NCBI GenBank assembly: GCA_018818905.1
Contig: JAHIRA010000110.1
Coordinates: 1-10,128 of the forward strand
Length of the DNA stretch: 10,128 nucleotides
Origin: Patescibacteria group bacterium
Lineage (GTDB): Bacteria; Patescibacteriota; JABMPQ01; JAHIRA01
Reading direction: 5' to 3'
Positions 114 through 7,481 of this stretch are shown one piece after another. The notes beneath the pieces were generated by a model, which ran no database searches, had not been told where the DNA came from, and worked only from the letters and a program-made list of their open reading frames with translations. Positions within the stretch are counted from its first letter, which is position 1; every line of letters begins with the position of its first letter. Position numbers and translations under genes: made by a program.

Positions 114-210
114 CGGCATATCTGGTTACGGCTTTTATGCAAAAGCCTTCACCCATATTTGCCTCCGCTACGCTACGGCAAACATCAGATATGCCGATAC
201 GTTGTGTGAC
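114..210 (+). repeat. cassette boundary element A (attC-like, long form)
   Basis: A perfect 11-bp inverted repeat, CGGCATATCTG (114-124) and CAGATATGCCG (186-196), encloses two further hairpins: GGCTTTT/AAAAGCC (130-147) and TTTGCC/GGCAAA (158-182). It is followed after 4 nt by GTTGTGT (201-207). The right end resembles elements D, B and C. This architecture of imperfect arms, inner hairpins and a terminal GTT-box on the 3' side resembles an integron attC site of about 100 nt. A matching left (R''-type) box is not clear: ACGAAC at 108-113 is the best candidate. Confidence 0.55.
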
Positions 211-246
211 ATAGTAATGAATCTTTCTTGAGTAGTTTTTACGGTG

Positions 247-252
247 TAAAAT
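247..252 (+). promoter_or_regulatory. possible weak -10 element of the APH-fold gene
   Basis: TAAAAT lies 15 bp upstream of the start codon at 268. No good -35 lies 17 bp upstream of it (TTTCTT, 224-229). A short gap to the ATG and no SD would mean a nearly leaderless mRNA. This is a weak call. Confidence 0.25.
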
Positions 253-267
253 AGAGTCATACGAATT

Positions 268-1080
268 ATGAAACACAATCTTCCAAATCAAATTGTTCTA
301 GAAGCTTTTGAAGTTTCGGGAAAACCAATTCGTCTCAAGGGCGGAGGGGGCACGTGCTACCGAGTTGATGACATCGTTCTGAAGCCAACGAAAGATATTG
401 TAGTTGCATCATGGATTGCGAAAATTTACGATAATCTTAAAAGTGATGAATTTCGTATCCCAAAGCCAATTCGAGCTAAGGATAATTCTTGGGTTTACAA
501 TGGATGGACAGCAAATAAGTTTGTCGAAGGAAAACATGAAGACGGCAATTATGATAAAGCTATCAAATTAAGCAAAATATTTCACAAAGCCTTACTCGGA
601 ATTTCAAAGCCCACCTTTTTTGATAATAGAAATGATATATGGGCAATAGCTGACAGAATTGCCTGGGAAGAACTACCTCCTCCTGATTTTGAGCTAACAA
701 ACAAACCCTTGCGAAAGATATTTGGTATTCTTAAAAAAAACGAATTACCAAACCAACTTATCCATGGTGATTGGGGTACTGGTAATATACTATTTAGCAA
801 AGAACTTGGCCCTGCAATAATTGACTTCAGCCCGTACTGGAGACCTGCAGACTTTGCGATTGCTGTGATGATTGTTGATGCACTTGTCTATGAAGGCGCA
901 GATAAATCAATCATCGATCTGTGTAGTGATATCCAAAACTTTGATCAGCTACTTCTTAGAGCCTTAGTACGACGAATTTGTGAATATATTGGTCACCAAA
1001 ATCATCCAGAAAATGACCATGATCGTTCCGATGATATCATTAAGCATCTAAATATCATGGAACCTATTATCAATGCTTAA
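268..1080 (+). CDS. APH/choline-kinase-fold phosphotransferase (aminoglycoside phosphotransferase-like)
   Basis: The 270-aa protein has the core of the APH/protein-kinase fold. A glycine-rich stretch KGGGG (24-28) precedes a VLKP segment with Lys39 as a candidate ATP-binding lysine. The Brenner-type catalytic loop HGDWGTGN has Asp168 and Asn173, and the metal-binding DFSPYWRP has Asp187. Enzymes of this fold transfer ATP phosphate to small hydroxylated substrates such as aminoglycosides, macrolides or choline. The context next to an AAC(6')-like gene favours a drug-modifying role, but overall it looks like a divergent APH subfamily rather than a named resistance enzyme, so the substrate is open. 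No SD precedes the ATG, and only a weak -10 (247-252) is visible. It occupies the unit between boundary elements A and D. Confidence 0.8.
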   Translation: MKHNLPNQIVLEAFEVSGKPIRLKGGGGTCYRVDDIVLKPTKDIVVASWIAKIYDNLKSDEFRIPKPIRAKDNSWVYNGWTANKFVEGKHEDGNYDKAIKLSKIFHKALLGISKPTFFDNRNDIWAIADRIAWEELPPPDFELTNKPLRKIFGILKKNELPNQLIHGDWGTGNILFSKELGPAIIDFSPYWRPADFAIAVMIVDALVYEGADKSIIDLCSDIQNFDQLLLRALVRRICEYIGHQNHPENDHDRSDDIIKHLNIMEPIINA

Positions 1081-1443
1081 AAGCGTTCAGAACTAATTCA
1101 AGAAAAATTCATGAAATAAAGATCACTTCTGTTACAATTTCTGCCCCCTTCACTCGATTCACCCAGCTTTTTTTGCAATGATTACGCTGGTGCGCTATTA
1201 TTCCATTATAGAAAGTTCTTTATCGTCTCATATACATAAGCAAATAAAATAAAAACATGAACGAGGAAAGCACGAAAAGCAAAATTAGCGATGACGACAT
1301 GGATAAAATATTTGACGAGCCTAGAAGTTGGCAAGAGAGATTTGTGAACTAAATTCGTTTTTCTCTGTTGGGTGGTAGGCCAAGCAAAAGTGCGATAAAA
1401 AGTATTAAGATAAGCCAAGTAATTAATCAATAAATCCTGAAAA
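1081..1443. other. gap between APH-fold gene and boundary element D
   Basis: This long, AT-rich gap separates two cassette genes. It holds only a possible 31-aa ORF (1257-1352). I see no clear terminator, promoter, RNA gene or extra copy of the boundary motif. Its length is unusual next to the other, compact units. It may contain the decayed remains of a second cassette gene or a poorly conserved left arm of element D. Confidence 0.4.
1257..1352 (+). CDS. possible small acidic protein (31 aa)
   Basis: An ATG-initiated 31-codon ORF ends in TAA and encodes a highly charged peptide with the segment SDDDMDKIFDEPRSW. No SD is visible, and the upstream sequence is A-rich (AAATAAAATAAAAAC). The DKIFDE segment faintly recalls the N-terminus of small ribbon-helix-helix antitoxins, but the rest does not follow and no toxin partner is adjacent. 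It may be a real micro-protein, the remnant of a degraded cassette gene, or chance. It shares the A-D unit with the APH-fold gene. Confidence 0.25.
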   Translation: MNEESTKSKISDDDMDKIFDEPRSWQERFVN

Positions 1444-1474
1444 CGAACTTCGCATACTCGGAAATGTTGTGAAT
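1444..1474 (+). repeat. cassette boundary element D (short form)
   Basis: The block CTTCGCATACTCGG (1448-1461) followed by AAAT and GTTGTGA (1466-1472) aligns with the right ends of elements A, B and C. ACGAAC (1443-1448) also occurs to the left of element A. I find no strong complementary left arm; only a few bases (TTCG/CGGAA) can pair locally. This is the least symmetrical of the four. It ends 17 bp before the start codon of the acetyltransferase, the usual tight spacing in gene cassettes. Confidence 0.5.
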
Positions 1475-1488
1475 TCTTAACTTATTTA

Positions 1489-1932
1489 ATGACCTATTCA
1501 AAAATTACAAAAGAAAACTTTGAAGACTGGCTAAACCTCGGCATGCTACTATGGCCTGATCATTCAAGAGAGGAGCTGAGAAAAGACTTCAGTGATACAT
1601 TAGAATCGCACAATGAAGAAGTATTTGGTTGTAAAAATGATCAGAATGAACTTATTGCTTTCATTAGTCTCTCTATTAGAAGTGACTATGTAGAAGGCTC
1701 AAGTACAAGTCCAGCTGGATACGTGGAAGGTATTTTTGTTAAACCAGACTATCGAAATCAAGGCATCGCAAACAAACTTGTGAAAATGGGAGAAGAATGG
1801 ACTGTAAGCAAAGGATGTACCGAAATTGGATCTGATGCAGAAATTGAAAATGTAGAAAGCCAGAAGTTCCATAAGAAAATAGGTTTCAAAGAAGCAAATC
1901 GAATAGTTAGCTTCATCAAAAAGTTAAGCTAG
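1489..1932 (+). CDS. aminoglycoside 6'-N-acetyltransferase-like GNAT protein, AAC(6')-I type
   Basis: This 147-aa single-domain GNAT has the length of AAC(6')-I enzymes. Acetyl-CoA motif A is clear: YVEGIFVKP (78-86) and then YRNQGIANKLV (88-98), with the pyrophosphate-binding R/Q-x-x-G-x-G/A loop at 89-94. The downstream pattern SDAEIEN..S..FHKKIGF (115-133), with Asn121, His128 and GF132-133, matches AAC(6')-I proteins. So does the N-terminal LWPDHS..EL segment (21-30). The family transfers an acetyl group from acetyl-CoA to the 6'-amino group of aminoglycosides in the cytoplasm. I infer this activity from motifs; a related amine substrate is possible. There is no SD: boundary element D ends 17 bp upstream and element B starts at the stop codon. 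It therefore forms a compact unit of about 495 bp from box to box. Confidence 0.85.
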   Translation: MTYSKITKENFEDWLNLGMLLWPDHSREELRKDFSDTLESHNEEVFGCKNDQNELIAFISLSIRSDYVEGSSTSPAGYVEGIFVKPDYRNQGIANKLVKMGEEWTVSKGCTEIGSDAEIENVESQKFHKKIGFKEANRIVSFIKKLS

Positions 1933-1933
1933 G

Positions 1934-1970
1934 ATTCGCGACTTCGGATGATGCGCGAACGTCGTATGAA
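1934..1970 (+). repeat. cassette boundary element B
   Basis: TTCGCG (1935-1940) and CGCGAA (1954-1959) form a short stem around ACTTCGGATGATG, followed by GTCGTAT (1961-1967). From 1940 to 1976 it matches element C (2485-2521) at 29 of 37 positions by direct comparison, including GACTTCGGAT, CGC, AACGT and AAATAA. It begins right after the acetyltransferase stop. The box differs from the other three (GTC instead of GTT), which may mark a decayed or hybrid site. Confidence 0.55.
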
Positions 1971-2117
1971 ATAATTGAAAAAATTAAAACAGACGAACCA
2001 AAATTATGGGCAATAGATATCCCAATAGAAGAAATAGATATTTCAGAGATAGATTACAATTTAGATATTCCTTATCTTGAGCAAGAAGGAACAGATGATT
2101 GGAATTTAACTCCAAGA

Positions 2118-2363
2118 ATGCTAATTAAAAAATTTGATAAAGAAATTTCGCATGCAAAACAAGTTGAAAAAGCAGATATTAAATATCCAATTGAAATTTA
2201 TAAGCATCAAGGAAAATGGATTATTCTTGACGGAATTCATAGATTTACAAAGATAGTTCGTCTTGGATACAAAACAATAAAAGTAAGGAGAGTTACAGAG
2301 GAAATTGCACAGAAAACCAAAAGGTCAGATAAAAAATATAAAAAATGGGGAACAAAAAAATAA
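2118..2363 (+). CDS. ParB/sulfiredoxin-fold protein, probably missing its original start
   Basis: From the first ATG the product is 81 aa. It has the signature of the ParB-N/Srx fold: YPIEIYKHQGKWIILDG (23-39) followed by IHR, giving the DGxHR motif (38-42), then LGYKTIKVRRV (49-59). Proteins of this fold bind nucleotides, and some act as nucleases or CTPases. The same frame is open upstream to about 1911 with no ATG, GTG or TTG. The translation from about 1965 (YEIIEKIKTDEPKLW..., then PIEEIDISEIDYN) looks coding and begins at the edge of element B. The N-terminal 50 or so codons therefore seem to be there without a start codon. Either the gene was beheaded when it was inserted at B, or a rare start such as ATA/ATT is used, or only the short form is made. 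The role is unknown. Confidence 0.55.
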   Translation: MLIKKFDKEISHAKQVEKADIKYPIEIYKHQGKWIILDGIHRFTKIVRLGYKTIKVRRVTEEIAQKTKRSDKKYKKWGTKK

Positions 2364-2365
2364 AA

Positions 2366-2393
2366 AAGTACGTCCCAGAATGGATACGTACTT
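2366..2393. repeat. inverted repeat behind the ParB-fold gene
   Basis: AAGTACGT (2366-2373) and ACGTACTT (2386-2393) form a perfect 8-bp stem with a 12-nt loop, three bases after the stop codon. No T-run follows on the + strand. On the - strand the A-run before it (2362-2367) would read as U's, so it could act as a weak terminator there. It may instead mark the left part of the boundary region that ends with element C. Confidence 0.4.
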
Positions 2394-2443
2394 ATCTCAA
2401 ATAAGATTTCACAGCCTATTATCAAGCATATTTCTAAAGTGAT

Positions 2444-2521
2444 CGTTTTTAGTGCGGATGATCCAAAATATTTTCTATCGAAAAGACTTCGGATCATCCG
2501 CAAACGTTGTGCAAAATAAAT
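2444..2521 (+). repeat. cassette boundary element C (attC-like)
   Basis: A perfect 11-bp inverted repeat, GCGGATGATCC (2454-2464) and GGATCATCCGC (2491-2501), encloses 26 nt. An outer CGTTT/AAACG pair (2444-2448/2502-2506) lies beyond a one-sided bulge. GTTGTGC (2506-2512) follows. A folded single strand would thus be a long hairpin with an asymmetric bulge, the form recognised by integron integrases. The right half is closely related to element B. It precedes the kinase gene at 2573 by 61 bp, the same gap as between element A and its gene. Confidence 0.6.
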
Positions 2522-2572: not shown

Positions 2573-3169
2573 ATGAAAATATTCTTAATAGGTCCGGGTG
2601 GAGTCGGTAAATCAACTTGTGGTGAGGTTTTGGCAAATTTACTCGGCTATAATTTCATTGACTTGGATACTGAATTTTGTGAGCGCGTTGAAAATGTTGG
2701 CGCTTATATCAATAACTATGGTTATGAAAAATATTGTTATGAGAATTCCAAATTATTTTATGAAATAGTAAACCAACATTTAGAAGATTTTGTATTTTCT
2801 CTATCCTCTGGATTTTTAACTCACGAAAACTTGGAGGATTTGACGTTGGGGCATAAACAGTCCCTGAGAGAGCTAGGAATTTCAATCTTACTTCTACCCT
2901 CAAAATCCTTAGATGAATGCACCAGGATTGTAGTTCAAAGACAACTTTCAAGGGGATTTGGCTTAAAAGAAGATAGAGAAAAAACAAAATTTATTCAACG
3001 CTTTCCAATATACAAAAAACTTGGAGACATAAAAATATTTTCACATGAAAAACCTGAAATTATAGCCGAGCAAATTCAATGGCTGCTTCTTTCGTTTCTT
3101 CGTACATATCTCCTCCTGAGCTCAAAGATGTCTATTCCAGTCGATAATCCCACATCAATATATCAATAA
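2573..3169 (+). CDS. shikimate-kinase-like P-loop kinase
   Basis: The 198-aa protein opens with a Walker A loop GPGGVGKS (7-14) and then FIDLDTEF (28-35). Asp30 and Asp32 occupy the position of the Mg/substrate aspartates of shikimate kinase. LSSGF (77-81) sits where the substrate-binding glycine motif is expected. RQLSRG (123-128) resembles the LID, and RFPIYKKLGDI (143-153) matches the R-x-P-x-Y pattern near the C-terminus. Shikimate kinases make shikimate-3-phosphate, but no other aromatic-pathway gene is near and the glycine motif is incomplete. A related small-molecule or nucleotide kinase is equally likely. The family usually ends near residue 172; the last 25 residues (LSFLRTYLLL...) look like read-through into unrelated DNA. 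There is no SD. It is the last gene that follows a boundary element. Confidence 0.65.
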   Translation: MKIFLIGPGGVGKSTCGEVLANLLGYNFIDLDTEFCERVENVGAYINNYGYEKYCYENSKLFYEIVNQHLEDFVFSLSSGFLTHENLEDLTLGHKQSLRELGISILLLPSKSLDECTRIVVQRQLSRGFGLKEDREKTKFIQRFPIYKKLGDIKIFSHEKPEIIAEQIQWLLLSFLRTYLLLSSKMSIPVDNPTSIYQ

Positions 3170-3293: not shown

Positions 3294-4040
3294 ATGAAGA
3301 AGCTTCTCTCTATTGGTGAAGCAGCAAAACTAATTGGAGTATCAATCGACACTCTTAGAAAATGGGAAGAAAAGGGAATTTTACTATCTTTTCGTCCTTC
3401 GAAAACCAGTAAACGCTACTATCGCCCATCAGATATTAATCAGTTTCTTAATGAAGATAATACTTCTTCAAATGAAAAAATAATTGATTTGGCAGAAAGT
3501 TGGGCATTTTCAGATTCCCCCACTCAACTCTCAAAAGATTATTACTGTGAAACAAGTGATATTTTTTCCGCTCGCTTACAACATTTAAGCGTGAAATTGA
3601 CCAAAGATCAAAAACTTGCTGACATATCCCCTCTTATTATCGCAATTCTTGGTGAGATCGGCAACAATTCATTCAATCACAATATTGGCAATTGGCCTGA
3701 TGTTCGGGGAATTTTCTTCGGCTATGATTTTGGGAAACAACAAATTGTGTTAGCGGATAGAGGTCAAGGAATCCTTAACACTCTCAGAAAAGTCCAGCCA
3801 GATTTAAATACCGACTGTGAAGCACTTGAAGTAGCTTTTACAAAATACATTTCAGCCCGCGCACCGGAAGACCGAGACAATGGGTTAAAATTCGTTAAAG
3901 ATGTAATTGAAAATAATCCTATAGATTTGTATTTTCTAAGTGGAAATGCAGAATTGATTCAGAAAGGCAATACTTCAAAATTGAAAATTGAGAAAAAGGA
4001 TCAAACATTCCATGGTTATCTTACAATAATAAAATATTAA
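3294..4040 (+). CDS. MerR-type HTH fused to GHKL-fold ATPase (anti-sigma/kinase-like)
   Basis: This is a 248-aa two-domain protein. Residues 5-51 (SIGEAAKLIGVSIDTLRKWE, later RYYRPSDINQFL) form a MerR/excisionase-type winged helix. Residues of about 85-245 resemble the histidine-kinase/RsbW-type ATPase: N-box EIGNNSFNH (121-129), G1 box DRGQGI (155-160) and G2 box RDNGLKF (194-200). There is no sensor, membrane segment or phosphoacceptor-His domain, so it is not an ordinary sensor kinase. It is followed 10 bp later by a STAS-like gene. RsbW-type ATPases and STAS proteins act as partner-switching pairs, so the likely job is ATP-dependent control of DNA binding. Its target may be its own promoter with the phased TTTAC repeats. 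It has no SD; the ATG is set by the promoter distance. Confidence 0.75.
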   Translation: MKKLLSIGEAAKLIGVSIDTLRKWEEKGILLSFRPSKTSKRYYRPSDINQFLNEDNTSSNEKIIDLAESWAFSDSPTQLSKDYYCETSDIFSARLQHLSVKLTKDQKLADISPLIIAILGEIGNNSFNHNIGNWPDVRGIFFGYDFGKQQIVLADRGQGILNTLRKVQPDLNTDCEALEVAFTKYISARAPEDRDNGLKFVKDVIENNPIDLYFLSGNAELIQKGNTSKLKIEKKDQTFHGYLTIIKY

Positions 4041-4050
4041 TATTTACAAA

Positions 4051-4332
4051 GTGATTATCAAAATAGAAAAATTTGGTACAAACCTAATTTCTAGGCCTTC
4101 TGGCAAAGAAGCTTTTCTCGCATTCAAATTCGAGCTTGATCAAATTGCTAAAAACGAAGAAGTGCTTATCGATTTTGAAGGCGTGACTGTTCTAACGCCT
4201 TCATGGGCAGATGAATTTGTGACTCCTATTCAAGAGAAATTCAAAAACAAGGTTAAGCTAGTTAATACCGAAAATCCTTCGGTTAAAGCAACACTAAAAA
4301 CACTTGAAAAAGCAAAAGAAGCAAGGGATTAG
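4051..4332 (+). CDS. STAS-like domain protein (DUF4325-type)
   Basis: The 93-aa protein starts at GTG, 10 bp after the ATPase gene. An alternating beta/alpha pattern is visible: strand IIKIEKFGTNLISR, helix SGKEAFLAFKFELDQI, strand EEVLIDFEGVTVLTPSWADEF, then helix and strand VKLVN. The VLIDFEGVTVLTPSWADEF segment (38-56) is the hallmark of DUF4325 STAS-like proteins. They share the anti-sigma-antagonist fold but have T/S-P-S/A-x-A-D/E instead of the usual phosphorylated Ser loop. Such proteins are often encoded beside a stand-alone ATPase, as here. The likely role is binding partner and switch for the upstream HTH-ATPase, made from the same mRNA. It has no SD, so translation is probably coupled. 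Confidence 0.7.
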   Translation: MIIKIEKFGTNLISRPSGKEAFLAFKFELDQIAKNEEVLIDFEGVTVLTPSWADEFVTPIQEKFKNKVKLVNTENPSVKATLKTLEKAKEARD

Positions 4333-4787: not shown

Positions 4788-5471
4788 AGCTTTACTAATA
4801 TCCTGGCTTTCAATAATGAGCGCAAAAACGTGATCGGTCAGTGAGAAGAGAACCACACTATTGCCGTAAATAAAACAATCAATCGGAAAATCAAACTTCT
4901 GAGGTAAAAATCTTATCTTGTGATTCTCGCGAATCGTCGTTTGGGCATAATTTACCCCAACCGAATCACGCGTCAGCAACTCTCGAATATGAGCTTGTTG
5001 ATTTTTTTTGGTTTTTTTGCTGACTTGGTCAATAATTTTGCCGAAATTTTTTTTGACATTCTGTAAAGACCCACACATATCAATACGGTCATAAGCCAGT
5101 GCTTCGTCATAAGCCTGCTCTATCCCCTTGATCCCCTCAAGAAGTCGTACGCGAGGACGGGCCTCATGAACTCCGTAAAGACTAACTAGATCTGGTAAAA
5201 CCGATTTAACGGCGTTTCTGGTTTTGGAAATTTCTTTCAGAAGCTTCTGAGGATGTTCGGCAAAATATGTGATCCTCTTGGCATCGGGTGATTTGGAGAC
5301 CAGATTTTTGGCCGCTAGATCCTCAAGAATATTATACACATGAGGTCTTTTTTGACCTGATTCACTAGCTATCTCTTTTATAGTCCCCTGGCCAAGTGAA
5401 AGAAGCGCCAAGTAGACCTTGCGCTCTTTTTCGTCTAGACCAAGCCTTTTGAGAACATTGTTTAGGTTCAT
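4743..5471 (-). CDS. TrmB-family transcriptional regulator
   Basis: The 242-aa protein has an N-terminal winged helix (about 3-70: LGLDEKERKVYLALLSLGQG, then IKEIASESGQKRPHVYNILEDL, then the wing) typical of TrmB/TrmBL1. A short coiled-coil linker (about 73-92) follows. The effector-domain signature PRVRLLEGIKGIEQAYDEAL (106-125) and a C-terminal segment IYGNSVVLFSL...FALIIES (201-222) complete the family pattern. Members sense sugars or other ligands and repress or activate transport and metabolic genes. The ATG has no close SD. Its promoter (5498-5526) overlaps a TGTCAA-N5-TTGACA palindrome, which suggests autoregulation, and it is divergent from the exported protein at 5692, its likely target. 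Its 3' end overlaps the hydrolase remnant. Confidence 0.85.
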   Translation of the reverse strand: MNLNNVLKRLGLDEKERKVYLALLSLGQGTIKEIASESGQKRPHVYNILEDLAAKNLVSKSPDAKRITYFAEHPQKLLKEISKTRNAVKSVLPDLVSLYGVHEARPRVRLLEGIKGIEQAYDEALAYDRIDMCGSLQNVKKNFGKIIDQVSKKTKKNQQAHIRELLTRDSVGVNYAQTTIRENHKIRFLPQKFDFPIDCFIYGNSVVLFSLTDHVFALIIESQDISKALGTFFELAWLSGEE

Positions 5472-5497
5472 ATTTACTTTATTTAGCCTCTTACTTA

Positions 5498-5526
5498 AGT
5501 TTAGCTCATACTGAGATATTTGTCAA
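5498..5526 (-). promoter_or_regulatory. promoter of the TrmB-family gene
   Basis: On the - strand, TTGACA (5526-5521) and TAAACT (5503-5498) are separated by 17 bp: a perfect -35 and a 4/6 -10. The predicted start is near 5491, about 20 nt before the ATG at 5471. The -35 is itself one arm of the palindrome at 5521-5537. Confidence 0.6.
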
Positions 5527-5537
5527 TATTTTTGACA
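5521..5537. promoter_or_regulatory. TGTCAA-N5-TTGACA palindrome (operator candidate)
   Basis: This perfect 6-bp inverted repeat with a TATTT spacer overlaps the -35 of the TrmB promoter. Similar half-sites lie at 5606-5611 (TTGACA), 5616-5621 (TATCAA) and 5640-5645 (GTCAAA within ATGTCAAAG). TTGACA is also the -35 consensus, so some copies exist for that reason alone; the unused arm at 5532-5537 is the stronger hint of an operator. Confidence 0.45.
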
Positions 5538-5605
5538 CTTTTTATTATATTTCGTTATTTTGTTTTAATAATAACCAAAGATATGCAATGATTTTTCAAA
5601 ATGTA

Positions 5606-5634
5606 TTGACAAAATTATCAAATAGGTTTATAAT
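5606..5634 (+). promoter_or_regulatory. consensus sigma-70-type promoter of the exported-protein gene
   Basis: TTGACA (5606-5611) and TATAAT (5629-5634) with 17 bp between them form a perfect consensus promoter. The start site should be near 5641, giving a leader of about 50 nt. So strong a promoter next to a regulator gene suggests high expression that is held by repression. Confidence 0.85.
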
Positions 5635-5636
5635 GC

Positions 5637-5663
5637 CATGTCAAAGATAGTTTCTTTGGCATG
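5637..5663 (+). promoter_or_regulatory. hairpin/inverted repeat at the transcript start
   Basis: CATGTCAAAGA (5637-5647) and TCTTTGGCATG (5653-5663) pair with one G-T wobble around a TAGTT loop. It straddles the predicted start, so it is either a DNA operator downstream of the -10 or a 5'-end RNA hairpin that stabilises the mRNA. Its left arm contains a TGTCAA half-site like those upstream. Confidence 0.5.
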
Positions 5664-5691
5664 TACATTCACAAAGAAATAAGGAGAGAAA

Positions 5692-6279
5692 ATGAAAAAT
5701 TTCCTGATGGCCATAGTCGTCCTAATCACCCTCACAAACACTTCCCACGCCCAAAGCTTCACCATCGCCCGCTTTGACCTCGACCGCTCACTGTCACTGT
5801 GGCTGATTCACAGAACTGAATCAGGCTTCTTTGCCAATGTCATTGTCAACACTGACAAATGGGTAGAAGTTGATGCCGGATGGAATTTCCAACTTTCCTT
5901 TGCCCGGAAAAAAGCATCACTTAGTATCACGACTCTTGTTGGCACCAACGTCTTGCTGGAAACTGGGGTCCCCCAATCCTTAGTTGGCACTCTTCTGGTC
6001 TTCTTCGACTACTCGTTCATTTCTTCTCAGCTGTGGGCCAACTACTTTCTCAAGTTCGATCGTCAGGCCAAAGACTTCTTGTACACAAGACTCTTCTTTA
6101 CAATCTGGAATGTGGGTCTACAAGTTGAGCTGACATACGATACAGAAAAGCTGGAAGTCTATCTGGGCGGAACAGTTGGCCTCAAGCCACTCAAAAATCT
6201 GTTCCTGAAAATATTTCTAGGAAAGTCTGCAACCAGTGCCAGTTGGATCATCAGATTCAGCGGCGAGTATTCGTTCTGA
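5692..6279 (+). CDS. exported protein, possible small beta-barrel
   Basis: The 195-aa protein has a classical signal peptide: Lys2, hydrophobic core FLMAIVVLITLT, and cleavage at SHA-QS near residue 20. The mature part has no further helix-type membrane segment. It shows many alternating polar/hydrophobic strands with aromatic ends (LWLIHRTESGFFANVIVN, WVEVDAGWNFQLSFA, LFFTIWNVGLQVELTYD, LEVYLGGTVGL). It ends in FSGEYSF, with a terminal Phe as in outer-membrane beta-barrel targeting signals. A barrel of 8-10 strands would fit. I recognise no specific family. The SD is excellent (AAGGAG, 5681-5686), the promoter is consensus, and a strong terminator follows, so it is a single-gene unit. Base use is more C-rich than its neighbours, which suggests high expression or different origin. 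Confidence 0.7.
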   Translation: MKNFLMAIVVLITLTNTSHAQSFTIARFDLDRSLSLWLIHRTESGFFANVIVNTDKWVEVDAGWNFQLSFARKKASLSITTLVGTNVLLETGVPQSLVGTLLVFFDYSFISSQLWANYFLKFDRQAKDFLYTRLFFTIWNVGLQVELTYDTEKLEVYLGGTVGLKPLKNLFLKIFLGKSATSASWIIRFSGEYSF

Positions 6280-6428: not shown

Positions 6429-7481
6429 ATGGCCATAAATAACAGACAAAAATCAATTCTCGAATTCGTTGATACCAAACAGAAGGCCTCTGCTCAAGAA
6501 GTTATTAGTCATTTGGTGTCTTCAGGATTTGAAAAAGCATCTAAGGCGACAGTTTTGAGAGACATTGCGCTACTTCTTGAAAAAGATTTAATAAAAAAAG
6601 TAGGCAGCAAAAGAAATGTTATCTACAAAACAAAGACCGAGAATCCTTTGCTGAAGTATTTTGATGTAAAGGAATATTATAAAACCGTGGCAGATCTCAG
6701 AACAGTCAAAGAGAACTATCAGCCAGAAATATTACCTCATTTGGAGTCACTTTTTTCTGACAGAGAAATCAAGCATCTTACCTCTTTAAACAATGAGTAT
6801 CAAAAGAGAAAAGCAAAACTCTCAGAAACAGCGCTACGAAAAGAGTTTGAAAGAATTACTATTGAGTTTACATGGAAATCATCAAGAATAGAGGGCAATA
6901 CCTACTCCCTCGTTGACACCGAGGTACTCATTAAACAAAACAAACCAGCCCCCGGTCATAGCAAGGAAGAAACTCAAATGATTTTGAATCATAAAGAGGC
7001 AGTAGAATATATTTTTAGTAAACCCAAAGTTTTTGAAAAAATTTCTGCTCAGAAAATTAGAACTATTCATAGCCTTGCAGTTAAAGATCTTGGTATTGAA
7101 ACCGGGCTAAGAAAGTCGATTGTTGGGATCACTGGCACCAAATACAAACCTATCGACAATCAGCACCAAATCAGTGATGCCATATCACAAACGTGCCGAG
7201 TCATAAACAGAACCAAAGAACCTATTAGCAAAGCGCTTATTGGTGTTTTGATGATTTCTTATATCCAGCCATTCATGGACGGCAATAAGAGAACCGCCAG
7301 AATCACCTCCAACGCACTCCTTAATGCTTACAATTGGGCTCCAATATCATATCGAAGTGTTGACGAAGCTGAGTACAAAAAAGCCATGCTACTTTTTTAT
7401 GAACAAAACTCCGCTAATTACTTCAAAGAACTGTTCGTTCAGCAATTTGAGTTCTCGGTTAATAATTATTTTGGAGCATAG
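6429..7481 (+). CDS. HTH-Fic family protein (class II, with Gln in place of catalytic His)
   Basis: The 350-aa protein has an N-terminal winged helix (about 4-68: RQKSILEFVDTKQKASAQEV, then KATVLRDIALLLEKDLIKKVG) and a Fic domain (about 140-345). The inhibitory helix motif S/T-x-x-x-E-G/N is present as SSRIEGN (151-157), N-terminal to the core, which defines class II. The Fic core reads IQPFMDGNKRTAR (279-291). The catalytic His of H-P-F-x-D/E-G-N-G/K-R is Gln280 (codon CAG); the Asp, Gly, Asn and Arg are intact. Fic enzymes transfer AMP or other nucleotide parts to protein hydroxyls, and the His is the general base. This copy should therefore be inactive, altered, or now only a nucleotide-sensing repressor. 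It is a lone gene, with an operator and promoter in front and a terminator behind. Confidence 0.85.
   Translation: MAINNRQKSILEFVDTKQKASAQEVISHLVSSGFEKASKATVLRDIALLLEKDLIKKVGSKRNVIYKTKTENPLLKYFDVKEYYKTVADLRTVKENYQPEILPHLESLFSDREIKHLTSLNNEYQKRKAKLSETALRKEFERITIEFTWKSSRIEGNTYSLVDTEVLIKQNKPAPGHSKEETQMILNHKEAVEYIFSKPKVFEKISAQKIRTIHSLAVKDLGIETGLRKSIVGITGTKYKPIDNQHQISDAISQTCRVINRTKEPISKALIGVLMISYIQPFMDGNKRTARITSNALLNAYNWAPISYRSVDEAEYKKAMLLFYEQNSANYFKELFVQQFEFSVNNYFGA

Follow-up and report, generated by a model that had tools for sequence, protein, structure and literature searches.

Contig JAHIRA010000110.1 of assembly GCA_018818905.1, analysed here over its full 10,128 nt (the window), most probably carries, without an integrase, a partly decayed piece of a gene cassette array whose attC-type sites belong to a family of the Candidate Phyla Radiation (CPR; Patescibacteria). 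We put this reading at a probability of about 0.86. As far as its architecture and site family can be judged from sequence, the system is a variant integron and not a canonical one, because the tyrosine recombinases found beside related arrays mostly lack the IntI-specific additional domain (I2) and score below the curated IntI cut-off, and because the arms of the sites are mostly unbulged.

The window is the entire contig C13, one of 186 in a 1.14 Mb assembly with a completeness of 87.9%. Its host is an uncultured, probably ultra-small bacterium and probably a member of the CPR: a TrmB-type protein of the same genome is 73% identical to a protein named Patescibacteria group bacterium, and the lineages named for relatives of its ParB-like protein (below) agree. 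Genomes, contigs and loci used for comparison are cited by G, C and L numbers.

Sites and cassette genes of the window

The first-pass annotation, made from the letters alone, had read four elements, A, D, B and C, as an integron-like cassette array. This reading proved largely right; it is supported by a covariance model hit of element A and by the sites and divergent recombinases of relatives. As described there, the four elements share one orientation. Their R' boxes all lie on the + strand (A, GTTGTGT, 201-207; D, GTTGTGA, 1466-1472; B, GTCGTAT, 1961-1967; C, GTTGTGC, 2506-2512), and the box-to-box distances are exactly 1265, 495 and 545 bp. Each box is preceded by the related block that had been reported: ACATCAGAT in A, ACTTCGCAT in D and ACTTCGGAT in both B and C. 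The block ends 10 nt before the box in A and D, and 11 nt before it in B and C.

Element A (105-207, + strand) is a complete attC-type site. Its left part consists of the R'' box TACGAAC (106-112), the L'' arm (114-123), GGTT (124-127) and a hairpin; the right part continues with CACCCATAT, a hairpin, ACATC, the L' arm (187-196) and the R' box. For A, the earlier judgement that no left box was convincing is thus not upheld. All 10 of the 10 arm pairs are formed. The covariance model R1, trained solely on 25 rows of sites from other genomes, gave element A a score of 73.2 bits (E 1.5e-15). Near-identical sites occur in two genomes of other families, G225 (contig C31; 97.9% identity over 95 nt) and G012 (95.7% over 94 nt).

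The other three elements are attC-type in part. Element C (2453-2512, + strand) has paired arms, which none of the arms of 106 other sites match in pairing, and a degenerate left R'' box. Element B (1941-1967, + strand) is left-truncated; it agrees at 27 of 28 nt with the right-hand portion of a complete 60-nt site in G086 (contig C21). Element D (1447-1472, + strand) has the form of a right half, and as a real site it is borderline because its weight-matrix score (13.5; 59 training sites) barely exceeds the best of 40 shuffles (12.8). A matrix trained on the 49 of these 59 sites that have a C before GTT, all from other genomes, scored C at 30.4, A at 28.9 and B at 23.6. No other position of the window scored above -1.6, and the maximum over 60 shuffled 10-kb sequences was 10.9.

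Beyond these four elements, neither the weight matrix nor the covariance model found a site in the window. An Rfam search of the window gave weak matches only, far below the curated scores. The boxes had been assigned to the GTTRRRY type. They follow a lineage-specific consensus instead, and a strict GTTRRRY search fails to recover the four elements. Two early structural site finders were dropped, since in many loci shuffled sequences gave about as many hits; on the window, one of them ranked A at the top of the + strand and the other missed it.

One main gene occupies each box-to-box interval, as had been claimed. The genes start 61, 17 and 61 bp after the boxes of A, D and C, within the range reported earlier. 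This does not hold for B, near whose box there is no ATG, GTG or TTG start; the first ATG is at 2118. The first cassette gene (268-1080, + strand) encodes an APH-fold protein of the TIGR02569 family (Pfam APH, 32.2 bits; TIGR02569, 148 bits with a cut-off of 136.75). The second (1489-1932, + strand) encodes a GNAT protein of the AAC(6') aminoglycoside acetyltransferase type (NF043067, 176.1 bits with a cut-off of 140). Two adjacent cassettes of this probable CPR genome thus carry an APH-fold gene and an AAC(6')-type gene. An AAC(6') relative (51%) in G058 was discarded as cassette evidence, because that genome has no covariance model hits.

The third cassette frame follows box B (1968-2363, + strand) and encodes a small protein without a Pfam match, which by its motifs is probably ParB-like. 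Among the 120 listed of its 211 relatives, those with a named lineage are Parcubacteria, Uhrbacteria, Peregrinibacteria, Komeilibacteria and Patescibacteria, and one carries the name bacterium only. Distant relatives in loci L026 (G027:C18) and L023 (G100:C4) lie between or just before sites of the same family, so this gene type recurs as a cassette. The gene after C (2573-3169, + strand) encodes a shikimate-kinase-like P-loop protein (Pfam SKI, 57.2 bits); it is either the last cassette or flanking DNA, and a site search after the gene found none. Past the array the window encodes a MerR-type protein followed by a DUF4325 STAS-like protein (3294-4332), and a Fic-domain protein with weak helix-turn-helix matches in its N-terminus (6429-7481).

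A site family with divergent recombinases in CPR genomes

The first-pass annotation had proposed to look for further copies of the elements. Relatives have them, and the window's own genome has one additional copy. By comparison, the left half of the consensus site is a box ending in AAC, a 1-nt spacer, a 10-bp arm and GGTT. The core consists of up to two hairpins flanking YCNCCCAWAT, then ACWTC, and the right half of the matching arm, 4 nt and GTTRNNN, often followed by RAAAT. The sites of an array share one orientation, with about one gene between them. Long arrays have 9 sites within about 7 kb (L162, G086:C21) and 17 covariance model matches across about 28 kb (L212, G012:C1).

The pattern of this family was present in 48 of 379 genomes of the window's phylum, at 73 places, as opposed to 19 for the reversed pattern; eight of the 48 genomes looked chance-like by eye (G093, G145, G193, G201, G203, G245, G295 and G332). 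In 44 genomes of other groups it stayed at chance level (9 matches versus 8). A motif built from element A and its relatives had 13 matches in 1.17 Mb of loci, at 12 distinct places including the window, and one match in the shuffled control. None of the 13 lay in a locus outside the window's phylum or the named CPR bacteria, and one (L033) is chance-like. The covariance model gave 87 matches in 29 CPR sources, some of which are training rows, and no match in 28 non-CPR loci. It also found four sites in G100, which is pattern-negative.

The arms of the sites covary. In the 25 rows of the model the covariation score was 0.491 versus 0.153 (sd 0.019) in shuffled alignments, and none of 500 shuffles reached it; these rows had been picked from 51 sites that already paired well, so that the value is inflated. 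In 106 unselected sites, with the window's own copies left out, the mean pairing of a site's own arms was 21.0, as compared with 15.3 for the arms of other sites, and in 46 of the 106 the own arms beat all 25 other-site arms drawn. Among 116 sites examined, 91 had well-paired arms, and 84 of these were without a bulge in a test in which bulges carried a cost.

Of 40 site-bearing genomes, 27 had a relative of the recombinase, as compared with 4 of 40 others (Fisher P = 8e-8). The site-bearing set consists of the 48 pattern-positive genomes minus the eight chance-like ones; the other set consists of negatives taken in the order of their G numbers. At the 25 CPR loci that have both, all 59 of 59 sites lie upstream of the recombinase gene and on the opposite strand. 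Twelve loci were left out of this count as repeats of places already counted. One of the twelve, L180 (G246), is not a duplicate, and its two sites are likewise upstream and opposite. The count further left out 60 non-CPR loci, five of which had a single weak hit (15.1-17.7). In G315, a genome in one contig, the recombinase gene is followed by single genes that alternate with sites; these encode a protein of unknown type, a methyltransferase, a NUDIX protein, an alpha/beta hydrolase, a RibD-like protein and another unknown. Named hosts include Wolfebacteria, Paceibacterota, Peregrinibacteria, Dojkabacteria and Magasanikbacteria.

These associations also bear on a rather different explanation, by which the elements would be dispersed palindromic repeats (resembling repetitive extragenic palindromes or miniature inverted-repeat transposable elements) spread by a transposase, and the genes between them would not be cassettes. 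Near-identical copies in different families would suit such repeats, and so would the further copy in the window's own genome, a single site on another contig. One-orientation arrays with single genes between the sites, the fixed position of the sites relative to a related recombinase, and the way its presence tracks that of the sites all speak for cassettes, and we regard the repeat explanation as very unlikely.

The first-pass annotation had suggested a search for an IntI-type tyrosine recombinase. A divergent one does stand beside the arrays of relatives, but it lacks the IntI-specific domain, and there is none in the window. The I2 region was absent in the 14 relatives aligned against a canonical integrase (L120). 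The corresponding motif distance is 66 amino acids in 32 of 35 measurable CPR rows versus 108 in L120. With the curated IntI model TIGR02249 (cut-off 265 bits), eight array recombinases scored 185-224 bits, L032 232 bits and L005 239.7 bits, whereas two canonical integrases reached 440 and 485 bits. In length and domain plan the array recombinases are like XerA and the NF040815 tyrosine recombinases; three of the eight (L044, L053 and L167), and also L032, pass the NF040815 cut-off. In a quick tree of 91 rows, whose deep forks are unsure, 42 array-type recombinases formed one clade (SH-aLRT 94), all from the window's phylum or named CPR bacteria except one Margulisiibacteriota bin, and three canonical-type IntI proteins formed a separate clade (support 100).

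The array might instead belong to a canonical integron with an ordinary, I2-bearing IntI, which is merely absent from the assembly. The incomplete and fragmented state of the assembly leaves room for this, and another genome of the phylum, G141, encodes on one contig an IntI-like recombinase that retains most of the additional region (L005, motif distance 98), and the contig also has one site of the family. Yet none of the 379 genomes of the phylum contains a protein that passes the IntI cut-off, and the recombinases scored that do accompany arrays stay below it. We consider a canonical system highly improbable, slightly more so than dispersed repeats. The IntI-like recombinase gene of G141 (L005 and L031, on C5) adjoins long direct and inverted repeats with GTT boxes, in which some stretches are N.

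State of the array and exchange of one of its genes

Several observations weigh against the reading of the window as part of a CPR cassette array. The first-pass annotation had read all four elements as boundaries of an integron-like array; A is complete, but B is left-truncated, the left box of C is degenerate and D is a borderline half. No left arm was found for B or for D, and among the 106 other sites the arms of 16 and 77, respectively, pair equally well with them. The covariance model check, which A passed clearly, gave C only 6.0 bits (E 9.7, not significant), and B and D are not listed among the model's matches in the window. In 11 genomes searched with the model, no site was found in G058 and G040, both of the window's own order. 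No relative of the recombinase turned up in 13 of the 40 site-bearing genomes, and the main clade of the tree does not include the array recombinases L005, L032 and L165. The attI sites rest on a few weak matches: in L123, L154, L164 and L181 the candidate is a weak, box-like first site at a distance of 48-177 bp from the recombinase frame. Finally, a search with L032 at E 1e-40 found no array recombinase in the window's assembly. Two recombinases of the same genome, L001 and L002, were rejected as owners of the array: they scored 121 and 65 bits with TIGR02249, and both fall short of E 1e-40 when L032 is the query.

This may be a relic array; alternatively, the missing part of the genome may encode its recombinase. 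That it is a fossil, with sites and cassettes true by origin that no longer recombine in this genome, has in our estimate somewhat less than an even chance. The missing recombinase would fit a fossil, as would the half sites B and D, the degenerate left box of C and the lost start of the ParB-like frame. So would the second A-like site of the genome: on contig C154, an insertion resembling an insertion sequence (IS) interrupts it close to the box, and the box half is recovered about 1.1 kb further along. On the other side, element A is undamaged and has near-identical counterparts in other families, which argues against old decay, and since the contig begins just upstream of A, the array may extend beyond its end. 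The IS-like insertion (L211, G000:C154, 4655-5915) has matching ends and a short target repeat; it contains a frame (5159-5752) that is presumably transposase-like. A defect is also seen in the window's closest relative compared, where the recombinase frame (L040, G086:C26, 1501-2403) stops before the catalytic-tyrosine motif; intact relatives of this recombinase exist.

The ParB-like gene has a copy in G086 (contig C10), a genome of the same family and another genus, with 97.4% DNA identity over 392 bp (1984-2375 in the window). The shared block begins 17 nt past box B and ends 12 nt past the stop codon, and the G086 copy keeps the N-terminus that the window's frame has lost. Beside it lies a site with the left box ATCTAAC, the right box GTTAGAT and a middle like that of element A. 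The first-pass annotation had named a gene order fixed in all relatives as evidence against cassettes; G086, the one relative found to share a unit, has different neighbours and different flanking sites. The same difference also counts against the array reading. Because the block leaves out the flanking sites, the sequences indicate an exchange of the gene between genera and not transfer of an intact cassette.

A probable variant of the integron system

What the CPR arrays have in common with integrons, sedentary chromosomal integrons included, are the one-orientation arrays of single genes, the folded sites with R boxes and L arms, the GTT box at the junction and the divergent tyrosine recombinase. 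The canonical attC fold, R''-L''...L'-R' with the GTT core at the cassette ends, is present in A and in the arrays of relatives; the divergent integrase is present in relatives, and no integron integrase is visible on the window's contig. The CPR system differs in the recombinases described above, in its mostly unbulged arms and in the conserved core YCNCCCAWAT plus ACWTC. The window itself is a candidate for a cluster of attC sites lacking an integron integrase nearby (CALIN, at least two attC): it has A by the covariance model and B and C by the weight matrix only. Archaeal integrons likewise are cassette arrays of uncultured lineages that came to light through site and integrase searches. 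Unlike the archaeal IntIs, which possess the additional domain according to PMC9668308, the recombinases aligned here do not have it.

Canonical attC sites are recombined as folded single strands, whose extrahelical bases are docked by I2. In the CPR system the recombinase would cut at the GTT box, a gene would be excised as a circle together with its downstream site, and the circle would be inserted at an attI-like site beside the recombinase gene. As the enzymes have no I2 and the arms are mostly without bulges, the choice of strand would rest on something else, perhaps on the unequal spacers of 1 nt and 4 nt, or the sites may recombine as double strands.

It seems to us an even question whether CPR bacteria run an integron class of their own, in which an I2-less recombinase captures and shuffles single-gene cassettes via sites without extrahelical bases. 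Such a class would represent a living form of a presumed pre-I2 stage, or a second solution to single-strand cassette recombination. Among the open-licence papers listed from PubMed Central, a collection taken without preprints, no title or abstract opening reported integrons in CPR. Some of the 2,697 integrons of groundwater genomes given in PMC12259885 may come from CPR. Site finders tuned to canonical integrons may miss CPR sites.

PMC7790495 presents the I2 helix as a requirement for the capture of cassettes and as the novelty that enabled integrons. With many CPR genomes that have cassettes, recombinases mostly without I2 and sites mostly without the bases that I2 docks, this claim becomes directly testable. 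If the reading given here is true, CPR bacteria, with their small genomes, would have a built-in route of gene exchange across families, and the genes on that route here are of the aminoglycoside acetyltransferase type and the APH fold.

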